Source: Lentimicrobium sp. (GTDB lineage: Bacteria; Bacteroidota; Bacteroidia; Bacteroidales; Lentimicrobiaceae). From it: 64,000 nucleotides of DNA. The position numbers were made by a program, and so were the translations under genes. The DNA is taken from positions 1 through 64,000 of the forward strand of contig JANJXJ010000150.1 of assembly GCA_024709105.1 (NCBI GenBank). Direction: 5' to 3'. The notes beneath the pieces are model-generated. The model ran no database searches. It saw only the letters and a program-made list of their open reading frames with translations, and had not been told where the DNA came from. Of this stretch, positions 38,707 through 52,566 are shown piece after piece (within the stretch, counting starts at the first letter, position 1; the number at the start of each line of letters is the position of its first letter).

Positions 38707-39474
38707 ATGAAAAAATTAACACTTTACTTCCTCCTTTTGCTGATAACAGGAACATCCTGTGTTTCGCTCAAAAAAATAAAGTATATTCAGGACGCTACTG
38801 TTTCGCAATCAGCCGATTCGGTGGTTTATCAGGCAAAAAGCCCCGATTACCTGATACAGCCTGGCGATCACCTTTATATTGATGTCAAAAACATTGACAC
38901 CAAGAGTATGAATCCCTTTCAAACCAATAACAACATCAATTACCAGACCTCAAACGAAGCAGGTGTTTACCTGAATAGTTATCTGGTAAGTGATTCAGGA
39001 AGTATTGACTTTCCACTGGTTGGAAAAGTTTTTGTTAAAGGCAAAACCATTAACGAAGTACAGAGTACGCTTCAGCAGGTGGTGAACGAATTTTTTCAGT
39101 TGACTACAGTTAGCGTCAAGCTCGTTAATTTCAGAATCAGTATTCTGGGCGAAGTATCCAGACCGGGAACCTACATGATTTATCAAAACGACCTTAACCT
39201 TCTTCAGGCCATCAGCATGGCAGGAGACCTTTCCAACTATGCCAATCGCCGCGAGATCAACATAATAAGGAAGCATGGCAACGGATCTAATGTTTATAAG
39301 GTTAATTTGCTTGATGCCGGAATTCTCAATTCACCTGCATACTACCTGCAGCCGGGCGATGTGGTTTATGTTGAACCTCTCAAAGGAAAGAACTTCACCT
39401 TTACTGCTTTCCCGTATGCCATTCTGTTTTCAACAATATCTACTACACTGTTGATTCTTAACTTCATAAAATAA
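38707..39474 (+). CDS. Wza-type polysaccharide export lipoprotein
   Basis: Outer-membrane lipoprotein of 255 residues for export of capsular or exopolysaccharide. The lipoprotein signal ends in GTSC (Cys18). A poly_export (BexD/Wza) domain follows (about 48-130; SPDYLIQPGDHLYIDV), then an SLBB domain (about 140-210; ISILGEVSRPGTYMI). A C-terminal hydrophobic helix (about 232-253) fits the outer-membrane anchor of Wza proteins. It sits 9 bases ahead of the tyrosine autokinase, the usual partner that forms the trans-envelope channel. Glycosyltransferases for the polymer are not in this window. Confidence 0.94.
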   Translation: MKKLTLYFLLLLITGTSCVSLKKIKYIQDATVSQSADSVVYQAKSPDYLIQPGDHLYIDVKNIDTKSMNPFQTNNNINYQTSNEAGVYLNSYLVSDSGSIDFPLVGKVFVKGKTINEVQSTLQQVVNEFFQLTTVSVKLVNFRISILGEVSRPGTYMIYQNDLNLLQAISMAGDLSNYANRREINIIRKHGNGSNVYKVNLLDAGILNSPAYYLQPGDVVYVEPLKGKNFTFTAFPYAILFSTISTTLLILNFIK

Positions 39475-39483
39475 CCTGTCCCC

Positions 39484-41943
39484 GTGGAAAATTACATCAA
39501 CGAGATAAATCAGGAGGAATCCTTTGATTTTAAACAGCTCTTTTTCAAGTTTTACAGGTACTGGTATCTGTTTATCATCACCATTTTTACTGCACTTACC
39601 ATTGCCTTTCTCTTCAATAAATATACCGAACCCATCTACAAAGTTGGCACAACGGTAATGATTAAGGACGATAAGTCAGGCTTTGACCCGCAGGCTATGC
39701 TTGGTCTGGGTAATCTGAAAGCTGCCCAGAATCTTGAAAATGAAATTGGGGTCTTAAAGTCCAGGTCATTGGTAACAAGGGCAATTAAATCGCTGAATTT
39801 TAATGTTTCTTACTTTATTGAAGACAACTTTGTAACACGCGAACTATACAAACAAAGCCCGTTTACCATAGTTTTTGATACAGCCTTCCCGCAACCGGCA
39901 GGTATGCGCTTCATGCTTACCTTATTGCCCGAAAACAAATTTTCTATTTCGGTAGAGGGAGAATCTGCAACTATTTTCAGTTACTCAACGCATCGCGAAG
40001 TAAATACCATTTCAACACCTTTGAAACTCAGTGGTACTTTTGAATTCAATCAGGAAATAAAAGGCGAGTATCACAACTTTAAAGTATTGCTCAATACCAA
40101 TTTCAAGCCTAAAGAACACCTGAATAAAAAATTTGTATTTGTTTTTAACAAGACACAGGATCTGGTAAGGAATTTCAGTGGTTTTACCATTGAACCCATT
40201 AACCGTGAAGCCTCTATTGTGGAAATTTCGATGAAAAATCCCAGCCCTGAAAAAGCTGCAGATTTCCTCAACATGTTAACCCGGGTTTACATGGAAAGAA
40301 ACCTGGAAAAGAAAAACCAGATTGCTACAAATACCATCAATTTTATTGATGAGCAGCTGCTCGGGATAACCGATTCGCTTCAAATGGCTGAATTTAACCT
40401 TCAGCAGTTCCGCACCACCAACGAGGTGATGAATTTTGATTTCCAGACTCAGCAGGTTTTCACTATGATGAAAGAACTGGAAGGTCAAAAAGCTGAGTTG
40501 ATTCTGAAGAATAAATATTACGAATATTTACGTGATTATATTTCCAATAACCAAAACGATATTGACGGCCTTACTGTACCATCTTCAATGGGAGTAGACG
40601 ACCCCATACTTTCATCACTTATCGGAGAACTTACACGCCTTTATGCCGAAAGAGGAGAAGCTTTGATGACAGCCCGCGAGAAAAATCCAATCATTGCTTC
40701 GTTTGACGACCGGATTCGTATCAACAAAAAATCTCTTCAGGAAAATATAAAGAATATTCTGAGCAATTCTAAAATTGCCATTCGCGACATTGACAACCGC
40801 ATTAATCAGATTTCTTCAAGAATTAACCAACTACCCGGGACTCAACGAGTACTTTTCGGAATGGAAAGGAAGTTTAAACTGAATGATGCCATATATACCT
40901 ATTTGCTCGAGAAACGTTCAGAAGCACAAATTACCCGTGCTTCCAATATGCCCGACAATGAAGTTATAGACGAGGCAGAAATAGATAAACTGCAACCTGT
41001 TTTTCCGAAAAAAACCCTCAATTATACCATTGCCCTGCTCCTGGGATTGGTATTCCCTGTGGTTTATGTGCTGGGAAAAGATTATCTCAACGACAAGATT
41101 ATTGATAAAAAAGAACTTGAATCACTCACCTCCATTCCGGTTATTGGACATATCATCCACAACAACAAGGAAAGCAGTATAGTAGTGGCTGAATATCCCA
41201 AATCGTCCATTGCCGAATCGTTCAGGTCGGTGAGAACTAATCTTGGATATTTCTCTTCAGAAAAAGAAAAACAGGTAATCCTGATTACCTCAACCATGCC
41301 CAGCGAAGGCAAAACCTTTATTTCCATAAATCTCGCATCTATTTTTGCGCTTTATGGCAAAAAAACCCTGCTGGTTGGTTACGATTTGCGCAAACCAAAA
41401 ATTTATCAGGATTTTGGCCTTCAGAATTCCGAAGGTATCACTTCTTATCTGATCAACAAAGCTGACATTTCAGCCATCATACAAAAATCGCCGCTTGATA
41501 ATCTTGATATTCTAATGGCAGGTCCTGTACCGCCAAACCCGGCTGAGCTGATTGCTTCAAAAAGAAATGAAGAACTTATGCTCAAGCTCAAGGAAATGTA
41601 CGATTATATCATCCTTGATACTCCTCCGGTTGGATTGGTTACCGATGCCTTCCTTCTGATGAAATATACCGATATCAACATTTTTGCTGTAAGGCAAAAC
41701 TACACCAACAAAAAGGTGTTCGGGGCTATTATTTCCGACATTGAGAAACGTAAAATTCCCAACATGAGCCTTTTGATCAACGATGTTAAAATGGATAAAG
41801 GTTCTTATGGATACGGGTATGGGTACGGTTATGGGTACGGATACGGGTATGGATACGGTTACGGGTATGGATACGGGTATTATACCGACGATCAGGAGCC
41901 TAAAAAGAAGAACCTGATTGATAACCTTTTCGGGAAGTCATAA
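39484..41943 (+). CDS. Wzc-type polysaccharide copolymerase and tyrosine autokinase with Gly-Tyr tail
   Basis: Inner-membrane chain-length regulator and bacterial tyrosine kinase of 819 residues, starting with GTG at 39484. A Wzz domain with the first membrane segment lies near 30-50. A long periplasmic coiled region covers about 60-500, with the GNVR-type domain near its end. The second membrane segment is near 515-535. The BY-kinase domain (about 560-770) has Walker A STMPSEGKT (603-611), Walker A' VGYDLRKP and Walker B YIILDTPP. The tail holds a tract Y(GY)12Y at about residues 775-800 in place of an ordinary tyrosine cluster. Autophosphorylation of the tail normally controls polymer export. 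A strong terminator follows. Confidence 0.95.
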   Translation: MENYINEINQEESFDFKQLFFKFYRYWYLFIITIFTALTIAFLFNKYTEPIYKVGTTVMIKDDKSGFDPQAMLGLGNLKAAQNLENEIGVLKSRSLVTRAIKSLNFNVSYFIEDNFVTRELYKQSPFTIVFDTAFPQPAGMRFMLTLLPENKFSISVEGESATIFSYSTHREVNTISTPLKLSGTFEFNQEIKGEYHNFKVLLNTNFKPKEHLNKKFVFVFNKTQDLVRNFSGFTIEPINREASIVEISMKNPSPEKAADFLNMLTRVYMERNLEKKNQIATNTINFIDEQLLGITDSLQMAEFNLQQFRTTNEVMNFDFQTQQVFTMMKELEGQKAELILKNKYYEYLRDYISNNQNDIDGLTVPSSMGVDDPILSSLIGELTRLYAERGEALMTAREKNPIIASFDDRIRINKKSLQENIKNILSNSKIAIRDIDNRINQISSRINQLPGTQRVLFGMERKFKLNDAIYTYLLEKRSEAQITRASNMPDNEVIDEAEIDKLQPVFPKKTLNYTIALLLGLVFPVVYVLGKDYLNDKIIDKKELESLTSIPVIGHIIHNNKESSIVVAEYPKSSIAESFRSVRTNLGYFSSEKEKQVILITSTMPSEGKTFISINLASIFALYGKKTLLVGYDLRKPKIYQDFGLQNSEGITSYLINKADISAIIQKSPLDNLDILMAGPVPPNPAELIASKRNEELMLKLKEMYDYIILDTPPVGLVTDAFLLMKYTDINIFAVRQNYTNKKVFGAIISDIEKRKIPNMSLLINDVKMDKGSYGYGYGYGYGYGYGYGYGYGYGYGYYTDDQEPKKKNLIDNLFGKS
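41806..41883 (+). repeat. Gly-Tyr codon array (GGN TAY) in the Wzc tail
   Basis: Twelve consecutive GGN-TAY units (41809-41880) flanked by TAT codons encode alternating Gly and Tyr, giving 14 tyrosines in the tract. Glycine codons vary (GGA, GGG, GGT) and tyrosine codons alternate TAT/TAC, so the DNA is an imperfect 6-bp and 12-bp repeat. It could change length by slippage in frame. Confidence 0.95.
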
Positions 41944-41962
41944 CAAAAGCACATTAATTTTG

Positions 41963-41990
41963 AAAGGCCATCTGAAAGGGTGGCCTTTTT
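41963..41990 (+). terminator. Rho-independent terminator after wzc
   Basis: AAGGCCA / TGGCCTT stem around a TCTGAAAGGG-type loop followed by TTTTT, 20 bases past the kinase stop. It separates the export pair from the sulfate-activation genes. Confidence 0.88.
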
Positions 41991-42024
41991 GGTATTTGAA
42001 AACCCGGCACTGAAAAAAATCACT

Positions 42025-42032
42025 TACATTTG
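42025..42032 (+). promoter_or_regulatory. Candidate -7 box for cysC-cysD-cysN
   Basis: TACATTTG matches TAnnTTTG and lies 33 bases before the cysC start at 42066. A TTTG is present at 41995-41998 but the spacing (26) is too long, so only the -7 element is supported. Confidence 0.5.
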
Positions 42033-42065
42033 CAGCGAAAAAACAGTAAGGAAAGCCGAAAATTA

Positions 42066-42656
42066 ATGAATAATGCGGGTTTTAGAGTTTTAATGGAGCA
42101 AAAACTCAGGCAAAAAGCCAGGGTAATCTGGCTTTCCGGCTTGCCCTGTTCGGGGAAAACAACCATAGGGTCAGGATTGGAAAAAATGCTTTTATCAAAA
42201 GGATTTAGTGCCAGGCTTCTTGACGGAGATATCACCCGGAAAGGATTGTGCAATAATTTGGGTTTCAGCGATTCAGACCGCACTGAAAACATCCGGCGTG
42301 TAGCTGAGGTTTCCAAGCTGCTTGCAGAATCGGGAATAATTACCATAAATGCGTTTATTACACCCACAGAGTCTCTCAGGCAAATGGCCGCTGAAATAAT
42401 CGGCAAAGATCTGATTACTTCTGTTTACGTTAATGCATCTCCTGCTGTGTGCGAATCACGCGATGTTAAAGGCATGTACCGCAAAGCAAGACTAGGCGAG
42501 ATTAAAGATTTTACAGGAGTAAGTGCTCCGTTTTTTGAACCTGAATTTCCCGATTTTGTAATAAATACCGACCAAAGCACTCCTGAGCAAAACATTCAGG
42601 AACTTTTTGAATTTATATTGCCTAAAATTACCTTTACCCATGAGCATGAACTATAA
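42066..42656 (+). CDS. cysC: Adenylyl-sulfate kinase
   Basis: Phosphorylates adenylyl sulfate (APS) to PAPS, the sulfate donor for reduction or sulfotransfer. The 196-residue product has the Walker A motif GLPCSGKTT, the APS-kinase signatures LDGDITRKGLCNNLGFS and DRTENIRRVAEV, and the GVSAPFFEPEFPD region. The start is the ATG at 42066 after an AAGGAA site; the frame extends to a TTG at 42030, and the ATG at 42093 is also possible. It overlaps the chosen cysD start by 17 bases, showing translational coupling. PAPS could feed sulfated surface polymers, given the export genes just upstream, or assimilation. Confidence 0.95.
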   Translation: MNNAGFRVLMEQKLRQKARVIWLSGLPCSGKTTIGSGLEKMLLSKGFSARLLDGDITRKGLCNNLGFSDSDRTENIRRVAEVSKLLAESGIITINAFITPTESLRQMAAEIIGKDLITSVYVNASPAVCESRDVKGMYRKARLGEIKDFTGVSAPFFEPEFPDFVINTDQSTPEQNIQELFEFILPKITFTHEHEL

Positions 42657-43548
42657 ACTTACCCACCTCGAAGAGCTGGAGTATGAGTCAATTTATGTGA
42701 TACGCGAAGTTGCAGCACAGTTTGAAAGACCGGTGCTTCTGTTTTCAGGAGGAAAAGACTCCATCGTAATGACTCATCTTGCCATGAAAGCATTCTGGCC
42801 GGCACCGCTGCCTTTTCCGCTGTTGCATATAGATACCGGTCATAACTTTGAGGAAACCATAGTTTACAGAGATAATCTCGTTAAAAAACTTGGCGCTAAA
42901 CTTATTGTTGGCTCTGTGCAGGAAAGCATTGACAACGGCAGGGTAGTTGAAGAAAAAGGGCCGGCTGCCAGCCGCAACATATTGCAAACCACTACGTTAC
43001 TCGATACCATCGAGAAATACAAGTTTGATGCTGCCATGGGCGGAGGACGCCGCGACGAAGAAAAAGCACGTGCCAAAGAAAGATTCTTCTCTCACAGAGA
43101 CGAATTTGGCCAGTGGGATCCCAAAAATCAGCGCCCCGAACTCTGGAATATCTTCAACGGCAAGAAAAATCAGGGCGAACACTTCAGGGTTTTTCCCATT
43201 AGCAACTGGACAGAAATGGATGTTTGGCAATATATCCTGAAAGAAAAAATTGAATTGCCCGAGATTTACTTCACCCACCAGCGCGAGGTTTTCCTTAGAG
43301 ATGGCGTTTGGCTTGCAAAAGCTCCCTTTATGACACTGAAGGATGGCGAAAAATTTGAAGTCAAAACGGTTCGTTGCCGCACAATCGGTGATATCAGCTG
43401 TACCGGCCTAACACTTTCAACTGCCAATTCTCTCGAAGAAATTATTGAAGAAATTGCAGCTACCAGAGTAACCGAAAGAGGAGGACGAGCCGATGATATG
43501 CGCTCAGAAGCCGCTATGGAAGACCGCAAAAAAGAAGGGTACTTTTAA
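42640..43548 (+). CDS. cysD: Sulfate adenylyltransferase subunit 2
   Basis: Catalytic subunit of ATP sulfurylase, making APS from ATP and sulfate together with the CysN GTPase. The 302-residue protein has the PP-loop LFSGGKDSIVMTHLA near 45, the LLHIDTGHNFEET segment, GGGRRDEEKARAKERFFS, and the C-terminal TVRCRTIGDISCTG and RGGRADDM blocks typical of CysD. The start is at the ATG of MSMNYKLTHLEELE, inside the end of cysC; an upstream TTG is less likely. It is followed after 46 bases by cysN. Confidence 0.97.
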   Translation: MSMNYKLTHLEELEYESIYVIREVAAQFERPVLLFSGGKDSIVMTHLAMKAFWPAPLPFPLLHIDTGHNFEETIVYRDNLVKKLGAKLIVGSVQESIDNGRVVEEKGPAASRNILQTTTLLDTIEKYKFDAAMGGGRRDEEKARAKERFFSHRDEFGQWDPKNQRPELWNIFNGKKNQGEHFRVFPISNWTEMDVWQYILKEKIELPEIYFTHQREVFLRDGVWLAKAPFMTLKDGEKFEVKTVRCRTIGDISCTGLTLSTANSLEEIIEEIAATRVTERGGRADDMRSEAAMEDRKKEGYF

Positions 43549-43594
43549 TACCCGGGCTGTTTGATTGAATAAATTTAAAGAAATCCCTGTTTTT

Positions 43595-44869
43595 ATGAGT
43601 GAATTTTCAACCAAAGGATATCTTGACATGGAACTGCTGCGGTTTACCACTGCCGGCAGCGTGGATGATGGAAAAAGCACATTGATTGGCAGATTGCTTT
43701 ACGATAGCAAGTCCATTTTTGAGGACCAGCTTGAGGCGGTAAAACGTGCAAGCATTCGCCGCGGCAATGAACATATTGATCTGGCTTTGCTCACCGATGG
43801 ACTTAGGGCCGAGCGCGAACAAGGAATTACAATAGACGTAGCCTATCGCTATTTTGCAACTCCAAAAAGAAAATTTATCATCGCCGATACTCCCGGACAT
43901 ATTCAATATACCCGGAATATGGTGACCGGTGCCTCAACGGCAAATGCTGCCATTATTCTTATTGATGCCAGAAACGGTGTTATTGAACAAACCAACAGGC
44001 ACTCATACATTGCTTCATTGCTCAGGATTCCTCATGTGATTGTATGTATTAACAAAATGGACCTGGTTGATTACAGTGAAGAAAGATTCCTGGAAATCAA
44101 GAAAGAATACACCAATTTTGCCGCCAAACTTAATATTCCGGATATAACCTTTGTTCCTATAAGTGCACTCCACGGCGACAATGTTGTAGACATTTCAGAA
44201 AATATGCCCTGGTATACAGAAGGTACACTCATGCACGTACTGGAAACCATTGAAATTGGCAACGACAACAACCTGGTGGATCCACGGTTCCCTGTTCAGT
44301 ATGTGGTCAGGCCATTATCCGACGAATACCATGACTATCGCGGATATGCCGGAAGAGTGGCCGGCGGGGTGTTTAAACCTGGCGATGAAGTTGTTGTGCT
44401 TCCATCTATGCTGAAAACCAAAATAAAAAGTATAGACCGGTATATGGAAAATTGCGAAAAAGCCTGGGCTCCCATGTCGGTTACTTTCACGCTGGAAGAT
44501 GACATTGATATAAGCCGTGGGGATATGATTGCTGTTGAGCACAACCTTCCGCAAGTGACGCAGGAACTGGAAATCATGATATGCTGGATGAATGACAAGC
44601 CCATGCAGCTCAACACAAAATACTCCCTGAAGCACACCACACACGATGTAAAATGTATGATCAGGTCGGTAAATTACAAAGTAAATGTAAACACTCTTGA
44701 GCATTTGCACGATGACCTTGGTGTAGGCCTCAACGATATAGCATGTGTAAGTATTAAAACAACCAAACCACTTTTTACAGATCCGTATTCAAAAAACAGG
44801 CGCACAGGATCACTCATTATTATTGATGAAGCCACCAACAATACTGTTGGTGTTGGCATGGTAATCTAG
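43595..44869 (+). CDS. cysN: Sulfate adenylyltransferase subunit 1 (GTPase)
   Basis: GTPase subunit of ATP sulfurylase, which uses GTP hydrolysis to drive APS synthesis. The 424-residue product shows G1 GSVDDGKST, G3 DTPGH, G4 NKMD and the elongation-factor-like domains 2 and 3. It ends after domain 3 and is not fused to APS kinase, in accord with the separate cysC gene. The ATG at 43595 (MSEFSTKGYLDME) is chosen over the upstream TTG at 43565. No cysH or sulfite reductase gene lies in view, so the fate of the PAPS is undetermined. Confidence 0.96.
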   Translation: MSEFSTKGYLDMELLRFTTAGSVDDGKSTLIGRLLYDSKSIFEDQLEAVKRASIRRGNEHIDLALLTDGLRAEREQGITIDVAYRYFATPKRKFIIADTPGHIQYTRNMVTGASTANAAIILIDARNGVIEQTNRHSYIASLLRIPHVIVCINKMDLVDYSEERFLEIKKEYTNFAAKLNIPDITFVPISALHGDNVVDISENMPWYTEGTLMHVLETIEIGNDNNLVDPRFPVQYVVRPLSDEYHDYRGYAGRVAGGVFKPGDEVVVLPSMLKTKIKSIDRYMENCEKAWAPMSVTFTLEDDIDISRGDMIAVEHNLPQVTQELEIMICWMNDKPMQLNTKYSLKHTTHDVKCMIRSVNYKVNVNTLEHLHDDLGVGLNDIACVSIKTTKPLFTDPYSKNRRTGSLIIIDEATNNTVGVGMVI

Positions 44870-44890
44870 GCTGTTTTTGAATGAAATTTT

Positions 44891-44923
44891 AAAGCAGGAT
44901 CCATTTCGGGATTCTGCTTTTTT
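44891..44923. terminator. Bidirectional terminator between cysN and the convergent membrane-protein gene
   Basis: AAAGCAGGATCC / GGGATTCTGCTTT stem (44891-44902 with 44908-44920) with a short loop and a T run on the plus strand. On the minus strand the stem is followed by TTTAAAATTTC. It can stop transcription from both converging genes. Confidence 0.85.
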
Positions 44924-46634
44924 AATTGTAAAAACCCGTTGAGAAAGAGAACCTTATGGCAAAATACAGGCCATTGATAAGAATTAGCCTGAAAAGCAGA
45001 ACAATTGCAACCCCGGCGGCAAACATAAGTATTCCATTCAATAAGCTTACCCTTTTTCCTTTAACAACCGAAGCTGAACCCCTGGACTTTTTCCTGAAAA
45101 CCATAGGCACTATTGCAAAAACCATGGATATCATGATGATGGCATCATAAACCATAATGTTTTCGTGTTGCGGGGTTTTATCAGGAAACCTGAGTAATAC
45201 CAGCAACGTTGTGCCCAGCAGCCAGGGCAACAGGTAAGTTGAAATGAGAGAAACCGTACGGTGCAGGCTTTTCATCCGGCCATGAGGCAGATTGGCAAGT
45301 GCCGTTGTGGCAGAATAATACCCGGCGAGGCTTAGAACCGATAAAAAGACCAATGAAATTAAAATTTTGAAAAATACATTCAGAAAAAGCCAGTTGGCAA
45401 CGTATCCAAAACCGAGATCTGTTATGATTCCTGCAACAAAGGCTCCCAGGAAATGAGCAGCACCCTGAAAAGCAACCCAAAGAAGTAAAAGCCTGAATAT
45501 ATGATTCTTAATATTACGTAACTGAACCCACCTGAACAACAAAAGCGCGGTAAAGCCGCTTGCAACCGGTCCAATAAGTGTTATGGCTATGATATTGGTT
45601 TTTGTCCAGAGATTGCTTGCATTACCTACAGGGAAATACAATTCATAGAAATAAAGAACAGAATCAATTTTATAAACCGAAGCTACAAGTATAGTTGGAA
45701 GTTGATAAATCAGGTAAATAATCAGGTATGATACAAGAAACAGCCCTGTAGAGTTAAACATGGCCCGTAGATCTATTCTCCTGACATAACTCCTAATTAA
45801 ATTAACGCTGCTTATTTCATTTGATACCGTAGCTGTTTCCCCTTCCTGAGGTTGATTACTGCGAACGCGCCTTAAACGATGCCTGTGGGCAATAGAACGC
45901 CCGTGTTTACGATTTGCATCATCATTTTCAGGATTGAAACCGGGGTTGAGATTACGGTTGACGTAGTTTGCGGCAAGCTCTTTTCCGGTAAATTTTACCC
46001 TCTTCTTTCTTTTTCTGAAAATTTTACGGATTTTGCTCAAGAAAAAACCCTTTGCTGACTTCTTTTTTCTCAGATGAATTTTTGAGCTGTCAAATAGAAT
46101 TTCGGCACCCTCTGATTCAATTTCAGAATCTTTTAAATTCCTGTTCACCAGATTAGCTGCCAATACTCCTGGTTTTGCAGGCACTGGTTTTGATACGGGT
46201 TTTAAAATCTTCTGCAACCTTTTTAGCAAGGAAAGCTTGCGTTTTTTCTTCCGGCGCGGATTGATTAAGTAACTGCGGGGTGATTCCGGATGGCCTGCCT
46301 CAGCAGTTGTTTCATAATAAATGATATTATCTGTTTCTGATGGCTTTGTGTTGACTGAAGAAGCCTTATCAAAGTCCCCGCTCAGATTCCGGTTGTACTT
46401 GTTGGCTGCCAGTTTTTCCGGAATAATCAGCTTTTCTGTTTTAAGCCTTTGACTAATTAGTTTTAATCTTATCCTGCTGAACAGATTACTTTTTCTTCTG
46501 TGCTTGCGTTTTTTAATAACCTGGCCTGTTATTTTATTTTGATCAGAGCCAATTTGAGAAGTACGTTTACTTCTGTATCCAAACAAACTTTGGAAAATTC
46601 TGATCAATGCCGGTGTTTTTTTTCGCTTAGCCAT
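44922..46634 (-). CDS. Membrane protein of unknown function with three LAANxxNRNL motifs
   Basis: I do not recognise this 570-residue protein. The N-terminal half (1-285) is hydrophilic and strongly basic. It has three spaced copies of a ten-residue motif: LAANKYNRNL (75-84), LAANLVNRNL (158-167) and LAANYVNRNL (220-229). Each copy follows a Lys/Arg-rich amphipathic stretch such as KIRKIFRKRKK. The C-terminal half (about 293-565) has roughly six to seven membrane segments, with WVAFQGAAHFLGAFVAG near 386 and GFGYVANW near 408. No catalytic motif is evident (HFLG is not HExxH). It converges on cysN and lies 21 bases after the alcohol dehydrogenase stop, so those two may be co-transcribed. Confidence 0.85.
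   Translation of the reverse strand: MAKRKKTPALIRIFQSLFGYRSKRTSQIGSDQNKITGQVIKKRKHRRKSNLFSRIRLKLISQRLKTEKLIIPEKLAANKYNRNLSGDFDKASSVNTKPSETDNIIYYETTAEAGHPESPRSYLINPRRKKKRKLSLLKRLQKILKPVSKPVPAKPGVLAANLVNRNLKDSEIESEGAEILFDSSKIHLRKKKSAKGFFLSKIRKIFRKRKKRVKFTGKELAANYVNRNLNPGFNPENDDANRKHGRSIAHRHRLRRVRSNQPQEGETATVSNEISSVNLIRSYVRRIDLRAMFNSTGLFLVSYLIIYLIYQLPTILVASVYKIDSVLYFYELYFPVGNASNLWTKTNIIAITLIGPVASGFTALLLFRWVQLRNIKNHIFRLLLLWVAFQGAAHFLGAFVAGIITDLGFGYVANWLFLNVFFKILISLVFLSVLSLAGYYSATTALANLPHGRMKSLHRTVSLISTYLLPWLLGTTLLVLLRFPDKTPQHENIMVYDAIIMISMVFAIVPMVFRKKSRGSASVVKGKRVSLLNGILMFAAGVAIVLLFRLILINGLYFAIRFSFSTGFYN
45948..46412 (-). repeat. Three-copy coding motif LAANxxNRNL
   Basis: Copies at 46383-46412, 46134-46163 and 45948-45977 encode LAAN-K/L/Y-Y/V-NRNL. 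Residue spacing is 83 and 62, so it is a scattered motif and not a tandem domain of fixed length. The surrounding sequence is basic and otherwise dissimilar. Confidence 0.9.
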
Positions 46635-46655
46635 TGGATAATCTACCGGAGAAGT

Positions 46656-47798
46656 TTACATCATTAGTTTGATTATCTCCCTGTAATCATCTTCGTTGAG
46701 TTTATGGACATACGTTGCTGCTTTGCTTTGAACCATAAGTCTGTAGATTTCATCAGCATCGGGTTTTATACCTCCCAAATTGCTTAATCTGACAGGACAA
46801 CCAATATATTTGAAGAAAAGCTCCATTTGCTCGATGGTTTCTTCAGCCGTTGATGAGCCAAACAAATTGTTACCCAACAATTTTATCCGGTCGTTCAACC
46901 TGTTTTTCATAAGTTTCATCCATGCCGGATAAACAATGGTAAGAGATGCTCCATGAGGGACATCGTAAAGCAAAGACAGAATATGCCCGATGCTGTGCAC
47001 TCCCCACTCACCCGAAGCACGACCATGCATGGTAAGCCCATTAAGAGCCATTGTTGCAGCATACATAATCTTTGCTCTTAACTTATAATTTTCCAGGTCG
47101 TTCAGCAATTCAGGGCCGTATTCCATGGCTTCGAGAATAATTGAATAAACGAGCCGGTCGCTGAGGGTGGCTTCTTCGCCTTTTCCAAAAAATGCCTCAA
47201 GCGAATGAGCGATCAGGTCGGCGATGCCATAAGCCGTATAATTTTTTGGAACCGAGGCTGTGTATTGTGGATCAAGAAATGAGTGCTTCGGGTACATCAA
47301 AGGACTGCTGAAACTGCCCTTGGTTTCGGCAGCATGGTTACTTAGCACGGCAAAAGGATTCATTTCTGTTCCGGTAGCGGCCAAAGTAAGCACAGCAACC
47401 AGAGGCACGGCAGTTCTTGGCATAGCGCGCCTTGCAAAATAATTCCAGGCAGGAGTTTCAGAAGGAATCGCAATGGAAATGATTTTTGCTGAATCAATTA
47501 CACTTCCTCCTCCAACTGCAAGCACAACATCCACTTTGTTTTCACGCCCAACTGCTGCTGCAGCATCAACATCTTCAACCACCGGATTAGAACGTATACC
47601 TGAATATTCAAAAACCTCAGCATCCATTGATTTCAAAAGGTTTATGATATGGTTATACAGCCCGTTTCTCTGAATTGATCCTGTACCGTAAACCAGCAAT
47701 ACCTTTTTACCAAACCGGTTAAGTATCTGAGGAAGCCCGTTCAGCACATCTTTCCCAAAATGCAGGCTGGTTGGGTTATATGCAACAAAATTTTCCAT
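46656..47798 (-). CDS. Iron-containing alcohol dehydrogenase (YqhD/butanol-dehydrogenase-like)
   Basis: Cytoplasmic NAD(P)H-dependent aldehyde reductase or alcohol dehydrogenase of 380 residues. The nucleotide-binding motif GGGSVIDSAK lies near 95. The metal site is made by Asp and His of GIADLIAHSLEAFF (near 195) and the two histidines around GVHSIGHILSLLYDVPHG (near 266-280). The family reduces short- and medium-chain aldehydes to alcohols during fermentation or detoxification. The sequence is closest to YqhD-like enzymes, but the substrate is not fixed by sequence alone. It lies between rnr and the membrane-protein gene, same strand. Confidence 0.93.
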   Translation of the reverse strand: MENFVAYNPTSLHFGKDVLNGLPQILNRFGKKVLLVYGTGSIQRNGLYNHIINLLKSMDAEVFEYSGIRSNPVVEDVDAAAAVGRENKVDVVLAVGGGSVIDSAKIISIAIPSETPAWNYFARRAMPRTAVPLVAVLTLAATGTEMNPFAVLSNHAAETKGSFSSPLMYPKHSFLDPQYTASVPKNYTAYGIADLIAHSLEAFFGKGEEATLSDRLVYSIILEAMEYGPELLNDLENYKLRAKIMYAATMALNGLTMHGRASGEWGVHSIGHILSLLYDVPHGASLTIVYPAWMKLMKNRLNDRIKLLGNNLFGSSTAEETIEQMELFFKYIGCPVRLSNLGGIKPDADEIYRLMVQSKAATYVHKLNEDDYREIIKLMM

Positions 47799-47846
47799 TA
47801 TTCAAGATTTTTAACTTTAAGAACAAATAAACAGCCACTTTGCTCA

Positions 47847-50015
47847 TTAATAATTTGGGTCAAGTACAAAATCCATTTGTTTTCTCTGCAAATCTACACG
47901 CTTTACCCTTATTTTAACAGGAGCTCCCAATTTAAATTCCCTGCCATGATGCTGACCAATTACACGATAATTCTCATCATCAAGATAATAAAAGTCATCG
48001 TCCATGTATTTCAGCGAAATCATTCCTTCACATTTGCTGCCATCCAGTTCAACAAAAATGCCGTATTTGCTCACCCCTGATATCAAACCAGTAAACGACT
48101 GCCCGATTTTATCCTGCAGAAATTCTGCCTGTTTGTATTTGATGGAAGCACGCTCTGCCTCAGCTGCTTTTCGCTCCATTTCTGAACTATGCACACAATA
48201 CTCTTCGTATTCATCTTTATTTACAGATTCCTTGCCTTCGAGGTACCACTCCAGCAAGCGGTGCACCATAAGGTCGGGATAACGGCGTATGGGCGAAGTA
48301 AAGTGGGTATAGTGTGTAAATGCCAGTCCATAATGCCCTACGTTCACTGTTGAATATTCAGCTTTCGACATGGTGCGGATGGCAATGGTTTCAATCATGG
48401 TTTTTTCACCTTTTCCGGCAATCTGTTCAAACAGGGTGTTAAATGAATTTGCAACTCCCTTGCGCGATCCGGTGTTGAGTTTATAACCCAGTTTAATAAG
48501 AAATTCTGAAAACTTCTGAAGTTTTTCAGGATTAGGTTCATCGTGAACCCGGTAAACAAAGGTTTTCGGATTTACATTACCCCGTTTCTTTCCTATTTTC
48601 TCAGCAACCCGGCGATTGGCAAGCAACATAAAATCCTCAATCAACATGTTGGATTCTTTTTGCTCTTTAATGTAAGTATCAAGCGGTTTGCCATTTGCAT
48701 CCAGAATAAACTTAACTTCCTGAGTGTGAAAAGCTATGGATCCCTTTTTAAATCTTTCTTCACGCAAATGTGTAGCAAGTTGATTGAGAATTAGAAGCTC
48801 TGATTTAAAATCCCCTTCACCACCTTCAATCATTTGCTGCACTTCTTCGTAATTGTAGCGCCTGTTGCTGTTGATTATGGTCTTTCCGAACCATTCACTG
48901 CTTATTTCGGCTTTATCATTCATGGTAAAAACCGCAGCAAAGCACAATTTATCTTCATGTGGCCTGAGCGAGCAAACCATATTTGATAATTTTTCAGGCA
49001 GCATGGGTATAGTCCTGTCAACCAAATAGATGGAAGTTCCACGGTCGAAAGCCTCTTTATCAAGTGCTGTTTTGGGTCTTACATAATGCGAAACATCTGC
49101 TATATGCACCCCAACTTCCCATTCTCCGTTATCGAGTTTGCGGAGCGACAAGGCATCGTCAAAATCTTTGGCATCGGCCGGGTCAATGGTGCAGGTCCAG
49201 ATATTCCTGAAATCGCGCCTGCGTGCTGCTTCTGATTCAGCAATAATTTCAGGTATTTTTTCTGCTTCTTTTAAAGTATCAGGCCTGAACTGCAGAGGAA
49301 ACTCAAAGGAAGCAAGTATGGAATTCATCTCCACGTTATTGTCGCCCGGTGTTCCCAGTACTTGTGTAATTTCTCCAAAAGGGTTTTTCGAGCGCTCAGG
49401 CCAGTCGGTTATGCGGGCAATGGCTTTTTGGCCATGCCTGGCTTTGTTGAGAGATTCTCCCGGTATAAAAATATCAACCGGAACAGAAACATCATCGGGA
49501 ATAAGAAAAGCAAACTTACCGGTAATTTGAACTGTTCCCACAAACTGGCTTTTGGCTCGTTTCAGAACTTCAACTATTTGCCCTTCAACCTTCCTGCCTC
49601 TGCGCATTGGGAACAAATGAACCCTTACAGTATCGCCATGCAATGCATGTCCGGTTTGCCCGGCACCAATAAAAATATCTTCATCCAGACCCGGCACAGC
49701 AACATAGGCCTTGCCGGTTTGCTTCATATCAACAACTCCTTCAACCGTTGCTGTTAGAATTTTATCGTTAAGTAAATCAGGATTATATTTGTATTTTCCC
49801 CGGTTCAATTCAATAATTATCTCCCTGGCAGTAAGTTTGTCAAGAAGGCTCTTTACAACCTCTTTGCTTACTTTATCCGTTACTCCCAATTGCCGGGCTA
49901 CCTGCCTGAAGTTATAGGACTTAAATGGATTTGACGAAAACAAAGATTCAACAGTGCTTATGAATGCATCGTTTTTCCCGGGTGTTGCCGGTGAGGCTTT
50001 TTTCTTCTTTGCCAT
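47847..50015 (-). CDS. rnr: Ribonuclease R
   Basis: Processive 3'-to-5' exoribonuclease of 722 residues that degrades structured RNA. A winged-helix N-terminal domain (about 15-75), cold-shock domains (about 85-225), the RNB catalytic domain (about 265-595; TIDPADAKDFDDALS holds the acidic metal ligands) and an S1 domain (about 640-720; GLISGVSKYGIFVELDGSKCEG) are present. The lysine-rich tail seen in E. coli is missing, and basic residues are found at the N-terminus instead (MAKKKK). All key acidic residues are visible. Confidence 0.96.
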   Translation of the reverse strand: MAKKKKASPATPGKNDAFISTVESLFSSNPFKSYNFRQVARQLGVTDKVSKEVVKSLLDKLTAREIIIELNRGKYKYNPDLLNDKILTATVEGVVDMKQTGKAYVAVPGLDEDIFIGAGQTGHALHGDTVRVHLFPMRRGRKVEGQIVEVLKRAKSQFVGTVQITGKFAFLIPDDVSVPVDIFIPGESLNKARHGQKAIARITDWPERSKNPFGEITQVLGTPGDNNVEMNSILASFEFPLQFRPDTLKEAEKIPEIIAESEAARRRDFRNIWTCTIDPADAKDFDDALSLRKLDNGEWEVGVHIADVSHYVRPKTALDKEAFDRGTSIYLVDRTIPMLPEKLSNMVCSLRPHEDKLCFAAVFTMNDKAEISSEWFGKTIINSNRRYNYEEVQQMIEGGEGDFKSELLILNQLATHLREERFKKGSIAFHTQEVKFILDANGKPLDTYIKEQKESNMLIEDFMLLANRRVAEKIGKKRGNVNPKTFVYRVHDEPNPEKLQKFSEFLIKLGYKLNTGSRKGVANSFNTLFEQIAGKGEKTMIETIAIRTMSKAEYSTVNVGHYGLAFTHYTHFTSPIRRYPDLMVHRLLEWYLEGKESVNKDEYEEYCVHSSEMERKAAEAERASIKYKQAEFLQDKIGQSFTGLISGVSKYGIFVELDGSKCEGMISLKYMDDDFYYLDDENYRVIGQHHGREFKLGAPVKIRVKRVDLQRKQMDFVLDPNY

Positions 50016-50480
50016 AAATTCTTTCTGTTGCGGTTTGGTAAAAGTACTAATTATCCCGGAAAGAACAGTGGAATACTATCACAATCCATGATTCAAATAT
50101 TGACTTAAATCGGTGATGGATTTTGACAGACACAAATCTCCCGGTCATTTATTCAATAACTTTTTACTGTTTAAAAAAATAAAAGAGCACGGCAATTCCT
50201 TTTTATAATTACACAAATTTAAAGTGGCACATTACAAGAAGGTAAAAATTTTCTTCTTATTGCTGATTATCAATGTTTTATAATATTTCATGCAAGTCTG
50301 ACATCAAAGCCTCTGTTGATAATTGTATAATTATTTTACTAAATATAAAAAAGTGAAAAAAATCAATATTTTCAGGTTACTTTTCCCGAAAAGATTGATA
50401 AAAGAATGATTACTGGCCGAAGCTAATGGCATGGCCGGAATCGCAAAAACACATTGATTCTCCATAACTCACTGAATATC
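50016..50480. other. Intergenic region between divergent rnr and receiver gene
   Basis: About 465 very AT-rich bases, no usable open frame, no convincing TAnnTTTG box or hairpin with a T tract. It must hold both promoters but I cannot place them. Confidence 0.45.
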
Positions 50481-50849
50481 ATGGAAAAGAAAAGGATTTT
50501 AATAGCTGAGGACAATGCAATCAATCAAAAGGTTGCTTTGCTGCTATTGCAGAAATACGAGCAAACCATAGATATTGCTGACAATGGCCGCATTGCCGTG
50601 GAAAAATTCCTGAGCCATGAATACGATCTGGTTTTGATGGATCTGCATATGCCTGAATTGGATGGTTTTGAAGCTACACTGAAAATCAGGGAAATAGAAG
50701 AGAAAGAAAACCGGGAAAAGAAAGTAAAGATTTTTGCCATGACTGCCAGCTCCATATCAGATGAAAGTGAAAGGTGCTATCAGGTAGGAATGAATGGATA
50801 TCTTACTAAACCTTTCAAACCCGAAGAAGTTATGAATGCGCTGTCGTAA
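50481..50849 (+). CDS. Stand-alone receiver (CheY-like) response regulator
   Basis: A 122-residue single-domain receiver with no output domain. The acidic pocket is AEDN (near 9-12), the phospho-acceptor Asp is in LVLMDLHMPELDG (near 54) and the conserved Lys is in LTKPFKPEE. The AEDNAINQKVALLLL opening is of the kind usually found in receivers of hybrid kinases and phosphorelays. The ATG at 50481 is chosen; the frame extends to a TTG at 50454. No kinase is adjacent. Its last 20 bases overlap the convergent ABC ATPase gene. It may act in a phosphorelay or bind a target protein directly. Confidence 0.92.
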   Translation: MEKKRILIAEDNAINQKVALLLLQKYEQTIDIADNGRIAVEKFLSHEYDLVLMDLHMPELDGFEATLKIREIEEKENREKKVKIFAMTASSISDESERCYQVGMNGYLTKPFKPEEVMNALS

Positions 50850-52566
50850 TTAAACGGCCGGGAATTGCCTCAATCAGTTCCCTTGTATAATTTTCCTGAG
50901 GGTTGTAGTATAAAGAGTCCGCTTCGTTGCTTTCAACAATCTTACCACTTTTCATAACCATTATCCTGTCCGACATATATCTCACCACCGAAAGGTCGTG
51001 AGATATAAAAATATAGGTCAGGTTGTATACATTTTTTAATTCATTAAGAAGGTTCAGTACCTGTGCCTGCACCGAAACATCCAAAGCCGAAACTGATTCA
51101 TCGCAGACAATAAACTCAGGATTTACTGCCAAAGCCCTTGCAATACAAATTCTCTGCCTCTGTCCACCCGAAAACTGATGCGGGAAACGATAATAACTGC
51201 TTTTTTCCAGCCCTACCTGATCAAGAAGTTGTATTACCATTTGTTGCATTAAAGACTTATCTTTGTGCAGTCCATGTACCCTGATTGGTTCAAGTATCGC
51301 CTCTCCGGCTGTGATCCTGGGATTTAAAGACGAATACGGATCCTGAAATATAATCTGCATTCTTTGTCTGAGTTTTCTGATTTGGCCTGAACTTAATTTT
51401 TGAACAGGTAAACCATCAAAAATTATCTCGCCCGAAGCAGATTCTGTGAGTTTAAGAATAGCTCTTCCAAGGGTGGTTTTTCCGCAACCCGACTCTCCAA
51501 CCAAGCCAAGGGTTTCGCCTTTGAATACATTAAAACTAACATCATTTACAGCCTTGAAAACTTTTGCTTTACCCATGAAAAAGCCTGGTTGCTGCCTGTA
51601 TTCAACGCTCAGGCTTTTTACTTCCAGCAGAGGCTTCGCCGCATAGAGTATTTGATGTTCTGTTATCCGCTGTAAGGGATCTTTAATGATGCTGATTTCT
51701 GAAGCTTTTCCGGGTTCATCCAGAAAATCAGAAACTACAGGCAATTTCTGAAACCTTTTATCCAATGGCGGGCGACAGGCTATAAGACCCTTGGTGTAAG
51801 GGTTAACCGGGTGAAACATTAAACTTTTTACATCACCCCTTTCAACCAAAGTTCCATGGTTCATAACAACAACATGGTCAGCAATTTCTGAAATCACACC
51901 GAGGTCATGGCTGATAAAGATGAGACTCAATCCATACTTATTCTGCAGTGATTTCAGAAGTAGCAATATGCCTTTCTGTACAGTAACATCCAGGGCTGTG
52001 GTGGGTTCGTCAGCAATCAGAATTTGAGGATGGCAGGCAATGGCCATTGCAATCATCACCCTTTGTTTTTGTCCACCCGACAACTGATGGGGAAATGATC
52101 TGTAGGCCCGTTCAGGATCGGGAAGCCTGACTTCAGCAAGCAATTCTGTAACATACTCGCGGGCTTTTTTACGATTATACTTCAAATGCAGCATCACCGA
52201 TTCTTCAATTTGTTTTCCGCAACGCATTACAGGATTAAGCGATGTCATGGGTTCCTGAAAAATCATGGAGATCTGCTTGCCCCTGATGTGTTTCAGCTCT
52301 TTTTCAGTTTGTGTAATTAAATTAACGGCTGTTTCTCCGGCTTGCTGGAAAATTATTTCTCCTTCATCAATGCGGCTGTAATTGTTGGGTAATAATTTCA
52401 TGATTGCGAGAGAGGTTACAGATTTCCCTGACCCGCTTTCACCAACAATACCAAGCGTTTCGCCTTTGTTTAAATCAAAACTTACTCGCCTTACAGCTGT
52501 ATGCCAGACTTTCTCATTCTGAAATGAAATACTCAGGTTTTTTACAGAAAGTAATGGTTCCGGCAT
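50830..52566 (-). CDS. Fused dual ATP-binding subunit of a peptide-type ABC transporter (OppD-OppF fusion)
   Basis: A 578-residue cytoplasmic protein with two complete ABC ATPase domains. In the first half Walker A is GESGSGKS and the signature is LSGGQKQRV. In the second half Walker A is GESGCGKTT and the signature is FSGGQRQRI. Each half has its Walker B with DEP or DES. The oligopeptide_ABC C-terminal extension (HPVNPYTKGLI) after the first half shows the dipeptide/oligopeptide/nickel family. Permease and binding-protein genes are not adjacent. It follows rodA by 23 bases on the same strand, so it may ride on the mrdA-rodA transcript. Confidence 0.94.
   Translation of the reverse strand: MPEPLLSVKNLSISFQNEKVWHTAVRRVSFDLNKGETLGIVGESGSGKSVTSLAIMKLLPNNYSRIDEGEIIFQQAGETAVNLITQTEKELKHIRGKQISMIFQEPMTSLNPVMRCGKQIEESVMLHLKYNRKKAREYVTELLAEVRLPDPERAYRSFPHQLSGGQKQRVMIAMAIACHPQILIADEPTTALDVTVQKGILLLLKSLQNKYGLSLIFISHDLGVISEIADHVVVMNHGTLVERGDVKSLMFHPVNPYTKGLIACRPPLDKRFQKLPVVSDFLDEPGKASEISIIKDPLQRITEHQILYAAKPLLEVKSLSVEYRQQPGFFMGKAKVFKAVNDVSFNVFKGETLGLVGESGCGKTTLGRAILKLTESASGEIIFDGLPVQKLSSGQIRKLRQRMQIIFQDPYSSLNPRITAGEAILEPIRVHGLHKDKSLMQQMVIQLLDQVGLEKSSYYRFPHQFSGGQRQRICIARALAVNPEFIVCDESVSALDVSVQAQVLNLLNELKNVYNLTYIFISHDLSVVRYMSDRIMVMKSGKIVESNEADSLYYNPQENYTRELIEAIPGRLITTAHS

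Follow-up and report, generated by a model that had tools for sequence, protein, structure and literature searches.

A predicted site-2-type pseudoprotease with a basic, motif-bearing tail in Lentimicrobium

Catalytically dead intramembrane proteases have been studied in animals and plants. EGY3, a plant chloroplast S2P pseudoprotease, is reported to be a homologue of S2P that lacks the zinc motif and acts by stabilising other proteins (PMC10978774). EGY3 is eukaryotic and resides in the chloroplast, and its likeness to the protein described here is one of description. The iRhoms are rhomboid pseudoproteases, dead intramembrane proteases that are reported to regulate signalling (PMC3149277), but they are kin of the rhomboid serine proteases and not of M50. 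A literature search found no bacterial site-2 pseudoprotease, and searches for the literal motif discussed below, or for exosortase together with M50 or with Bacteroidota/XrtX, returned nothing relevant.

The window analysed here is a 64,000-nucleotide stretch of DNA from Lentimicrobium sp. (contig JANJXJ010000150.1), and one of its genes encodes a membrane protein that can be set beside several zinc proteases. The site-2 protease of Methanocaldococcus jannaschii (3b4r), an active zinc protease, is the best structural match to it, at a middling score. From other Bacteroidia come four membrane proteins with HExxH (L214, L215, L216 and L217) that resemble it in length, in a colinear domain, in an AGPxxS segment and in the C-terminal third, but they keep HExxH and GDxG, lack a long basic tail and reach the cut-off of no Pfam family. 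The genus also has M50B-type proteins (L176, from the same genome), which are linked to the window protein through these HExxH relatives; they retain HExxH, and a direct comparison with the family of the window protein fails. The XrtX/XrtF exosortases and their associated proteins are comparable in that an exosortase gene adjoins the family gene in part of the related loci.

The gene reads on the minus strand within the limits first proposed for it, which proved correct (Table 1), and the plus frame of the same interval is full of stops. The initial annotation described an unrecognised membrane protein ending in a six- to seven-segment membrane domain; seven membrane helices are predicted, in a model with a mean pLDDT of 81.4 and a pTM of 0.83. 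Pfam and NCBIfam searches with the protein gave no match above cut-off and no M50 match, none of the family proteins matched an NCBIfam model at cut-off, and PDB searches by sequence, with the protein and with a profile, gave no usable match. A PDB sequence match to Huntingtin (0.023) aligned on the basic tail and was taken as composition. Rfam returned none over 39000-52000, and a promoter and terminator scan stayed near shuffle level.

Table 1. Positions of the gene, its putative functional elements and its upstream neighbours in the window
Feature	Position	Strand	Remarks
Whole gene	44922..46634	-	570 aa; ATG start at 46634; 100% self match in own genome at G000:C172
Basic N-terminal tail, residues 1-285	45780..46634	-	predicted cytoplasmic; low model confidence
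Motif copy 1, LAANKYNRNL, residues 75-84	46383..46412	-	
Motif copy 2, LAANLVNRNL, residues 158-167	46134..46163	-	
Motif copy 3, LAANYVNRNL, residues 220-229	45948..45977	-	
Seven-helix membrane domain (predicted), residues 286-570	44925..45779	-	conserved across Bacteroidales (alignments A1-A3)
Y310-Q311-L-P-T314, putative lost HExxH site	45693..45707	-	columns match HExxH of four relatives
G355-P356-V-A-S359, counterpart of AGPxxS in HExxH relatives	45558..45572	-	
Gly408, aligned with lost Asp of GD[ILT]G	45411..45413	-	invariant in A1-A3; hhalign
Iron-type alcohol dehydrogenase-like gene (named from sequence character), directly upstream	46656..47798	-	
RNase R gene, upstream, same strand	47847..50015	-	L050 homologue: Pfam RNB, CSD2, S1

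Searching with the protein identified relatives in 21 of 60 genomes, and 27 loci from named genomes form the set for all related-locus counts given below. Long-form relatives are spread through the Bacteroidales, and the profile of the membrane domain (A3) has matches in 42 of 395 Bacteroidia genomes. The membrane domain contains 22 invariant columns in 28 rows; the tail is unalignable beyond close relatives. One member (L037), in which a masked stretch breaks the end of the protein, was left out of A2, A3 and the structure predictions. Within Lentimicrobium the long gene is present in 14 of 19 genomes, all 14 of which also carry a short, tail-less paralogue. At L119:5427-6227 and at L120-L124 and L126 the short paralogue is convergent to one gene family, whose L120 member is an M14 carboxypeptidase bearing a Por secretion tail.

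The A3 profile recovered four distant relatives that bear an HExxH motif (E-values of 3.1e-18, 1.4e-8, 3.3e-8 and 2.0e-6). In the matches from genomes G320, G426, G408 and G330 the sequences HEVGH, HELGH, HECAH and HEGGH stand exactly at Y310-Q311, followed by AGPxxS at P356 and then by GDIG, GDLG or GDTG near F409. An alignment of these four proteins (A6) matches A3 over 249 columns with an hhalign probability of 99.3 and an E-value of 2.9e-20, a significant similarity along the full length of the domain; a control comparison of an exosortase profile (A4) with A3 gave a probability of 0.2. A6 in turn matches M50B proteins of relatives over the HExxH-AGP region (probability 94.7, E-value 6.1e-8). 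Direct profile comparison of the family with M50B or M50 yielded probabilities of 0.7 and 0.6, and 0.3 and 0.6 when all family members were combined, so the claim of descent from proteases rests on the bridge formed by the four HExxH relatives. These relatives match the Pfam M50 models below cut-off only, and A6 used as a query in the genome of the window recovered the short paralogue but not the window protein; the sister protein at L032 was likewise missed. In both VIA-align runs the best row was site-2 protease 3b4r_A (rmsd 5.2, 125 and 127 residues aligned), with a Z-score of 6.0 that lies in the middling range of the tool's own scale and alone would prove little.

Both the HExxH zinc motif and the Asp ligand of a later helix are absent from the window protein, which has the invariant Gly408 in place of the latter. 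After removal of identical sequences from 105 ORF matches, 79 were retained, and the ligand columns were counted in those with >220 matched residues. His occurs at the second His column in none of the 74 other family rows; these degenerate rows carry mostly Y/F/H/N, Q/E and T/V at the ligand columns and G at the Asp column, and the short paralogue from the same genome reads HQxxT. Because the relatives align along the whole domain with HExxH at Y310-Q311-x-x-T314, homology shows the domain to be a relative of the M50/site-2-type intramembrane metalloproteases that is, to judge from its residues, catalytically dead. This identification of a probable dead site-2-type protease relative is the new result of the analysis: what had been called unrecognised is now placed by four HExxH proteins, and an apparent descent from zinc intramembrane proteases had been missed.

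The topology of the protein can be read from the distribution of charge. In 27 sequences the mean number of Lys and Arg residues in loops 2, 4 and 6 is 2.85, 3.33 and 5.30, and in loops 1, 3 and 5 it is 0.15, 0.00 and 0.41. By the positive-inside rule, this alternation supports a cytoplasmic location of the Lys/Arg-rich N-terminal tail, with the first helix running outward. With the tail inside and the first helix directed outward, the pseudo-active site would lie toward the outer half of the membrane. In canonical site-2 proteases HExxH lies near the cytoplasm, so the orientation of the window protein may be inverted with respect to these enzymes, its pseudo-active-site helix apparently crossing the membrane in the outward direction. 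Neither the HExxH relatives nor the short paralogues show as clear a charge pattern.

The explanation that we favour, and consider fairly probable as a whole, is that the protein is an intramembrane pseudoprotease that holds a membrane client, with a basic tail, docking motifs peculiar to Lentimicrobium and a possible ancestral link to exosortases. On the evidence of homology, the seven-helix domain descends from M50/site-2-type zinc metalloproteases with loss of the entire active site, HExxH having become Y310-Q311-x-x-T314 and the Asp that serves as second zinc ligand aligning with invariant Gly408. By analogy with EGY3 and the iRhoms, the domain most probably binds, without cleaving, a transmembrane segment of its client, which it would hold, stabilise or present. 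The tail would meet anionic surfaces. In Lentimicrobium it would have gained the sequence LAANxxNxNL, which two of three branches retained and whose copies increased to up to three; these copies are most likely docking peptides for one cytoplasmic partner, each additional copy adding avidity.

The gene neighbours of the family give the best lead to the client in early-branching lineages. In 8 of the 27 loci the family gene and an adjacent exosortase gene diverge; all 8 belong to other lineages, on early branches of the midpoint-rooted tree, and since the pairing is found in early-branching lineages, the ancestral client might have been a component of surface protein sorting that depends on exosortase. 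At L118:5318-7065 a distant member of the family, whose tail is rich in Ser and His, is likewise divergent with an exosortase gene, in unrelated surroundings. The paired exosortases share invariant Cys101, Arg142 and His161 (residue numbers from the first A4 row), which we take to be the exosortase catalytic residues. These observations would also suit a protein whose function is to help exosortase-dependent sorting by binding, in the inner membrane, either exosortase itself or the sorting helix at the C-terminus of its substrates. We regard this alternative as unlikely, however: the exosortase gene of Lentimicrobium lies elsewhere in the genome, adjacent to the family gene neither in the window nor in any of nine Lentimicrobium loci; its presence in 12 of 14 genomes with the long gene and in 3 of 5 without it rules out strict co-occurrence; and enrichment across the class is weak (30/42 versus 182/353 genomes, counted manually from listings). 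Four of the paired exosortases were tested (L049, L050, L056 and L057) and differ from XrtX in scoring 86-93 bits against a cut-off of 170; they may constitute an undescribed subfamily.

The second alternative concerns the tail. The window tail has a net charge of +49 with 25% Lys and Arg and a pLDDT mostly between 32 and 67, and tails of at least 60 residues are basic in 38 of 38 members, with net charges from +4 to +49. Outside the motif they cannot be aligned between branches and are nevertheless all basic, as would be expected of a polybasic anchor for membrane or nucleic acid in which charge alone matters and internal duplication produced the LAAN repeats incidentally. The motif itself is the main evidence on this question. 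As initially noted, the ten-residue sequence occurs three times, identical at eight of ten positions and spaced by 83 and 62 residues (Table 1). Among 1000 shuffled versions of the 285-residue tail, the best pair of 10-mers had seven identities and none had eight, which excludes a chance origin. Between copies, the codons differ at 5, 5 and 6 of the 8 shared residues (manual count), and a DNA repeat search found none covering the copies, so the copies are old. A degenerate DNA form of the looser LAANxxNxNL occurs nine times in the 19 genus genomes, every time in this gene; its reversed control occurs in none of them. The repeated sequence is thus genuine, old and peculiar to this gene.

The surroundings of the motif were characterised less accurately by the initial annotation, which took the linkers to be unrelated and each copy to follow a Lys/Arg-rich amphipathic stretch. 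The residues after the motif are at shuffle level, as that description implied, but before it two of three pairs fall in the top 2-3% of shuffles, a partial likeness of the kind that duplication would leave. The stretches before the copies are basic; amphipathic helices there are unsupported, their moments being reached by 89%, 13% and 54% of shuffles. The sole marginal amphipathic moment belongs to an N-terminal helix at residues 9-19 (4% of shuffles).

Motif number varies among homologues. Within Lentimicrobium the motif is found in 9 of 14 orthologues, with three copies in the window, two in L003/L032 and one in seven others, two of which (L013 and L014) keep the LAAN core alone; there are none in L005, L007, L008, L012 and the partial orthologue L018. 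We built a midpoint-rooted tree of the membrane domain from 35 chosen rows, to which L018 does not belong. Motif-bearing rows occupy two of three genus branches, and the motif is missing from 4 of 13 genus rows, which suits the polybasic anchor. Beyond the genus it is missing from every one of 19 long relatives, yet conservation of the membrane domain extends to all rows; the initial annotation had itself named such a pattern as one that would refute its reading. With this distribution, the motif lies outside the core function of the domain and of the family.

Selection on the motif, claimed without limits of scope in the initial annotation, looks real within part of the genus, where the copies share residues and not codons and the motif occurs nowhere else in 19 genomes; it does not extend across the family. 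Between close species (G013, G001) the tail evolves faster than the membrane domain, with dN/dS of ~0.25 versus 0.10, and for 13 codons around the motif dN/dS is ~0.05, from very few sites (dN 0.036 and dS 0.72 in one pair). Another pair, G001/G005, could not be used for dN/dS because a 1.2-kb tract over the membrane domain (L010:1500-2700 against L035) is 97-100% identical, with flanks mostly at 87-96%. This tract, one edge of which lies near the border of tail and domain, appears to be a sign of recent recombination. Preservation of the motif residues despite heavy synonymous change across two deep genus branches, with DNA-level repeats gone, argues against charge alone, and the polybasic anchor seems to us improbable, on a level with the exosortase helper. 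The copies have the attributes of a docking short linear motif, namely conserved residues, a disordered region and a changing copy number. A multivalent docking motif tethered at the membrane, as first suggested, is a reasonable idea for part of one genus, given the conservation there, the varying copy number and a strongly basic tail that probably faces the cytoplasm, but not for the family.

A partnership with RNase R, in which the protein would for example tether RNA decay or ribosomes to the membrane through its basic tail, is suggested by the other recurrent neighbour. In the window, as in 9 of 9 Lentimicrobium loci, rnr shares the strand of the family gene and is found upstream of it; in 6 other loci it is downstream and convergent, making 15 of 27 in two orientations; a homologue of the alcohol dehydrogenase-like gene separates it from the family gene in 7 of the 27. 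We give this explanation little credence: in 12 of 27 loci rnr is absent from the flanks fetched, some of which were short, and the association may reflect synteny passed on by descent, RNase H and phosphoribosyltransferase genes being recurrent neighbours too. Least probable of all is a transporter or channel that merely resembles the protease fold, for although Foldseek returned mostly receptors and transporters, with no match at E <0.1, the HExxH relatives are colinear over the domain and a site-2 protease was twice the best VIA-align row.

Should the pseudoprotease reading be right, the bacterial family would present a graded series from HExxH through HQxxT to YQxxT, beside an exosortase in some lineages and genetically testable, and the Lentimicrobium orthologues, with their 0, 1, 2 and 3 motif copies, would allow the contribution of multivalency to be tested in a natural series. 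A more far-reaching proposal, which we put forward only as a doubtful one, is that dead site-2-type proteases form a widespread, unnamed family in the Bacteroidia that acts as a membrane receptor for transmembrane or sorting helices, originally for exosortase, that fast-evolving basic tails couple it to cytoplasmic partners, and that the Lentimicrobium tail has become a multivalent docking platform with a repeated motif of its own. Elsewhere in the window, a polysaccharide tyrosine kinase-like protein (39484-41943) contains about twelve YG repeats near 41800-41900 on the plus strand, before its last residues.
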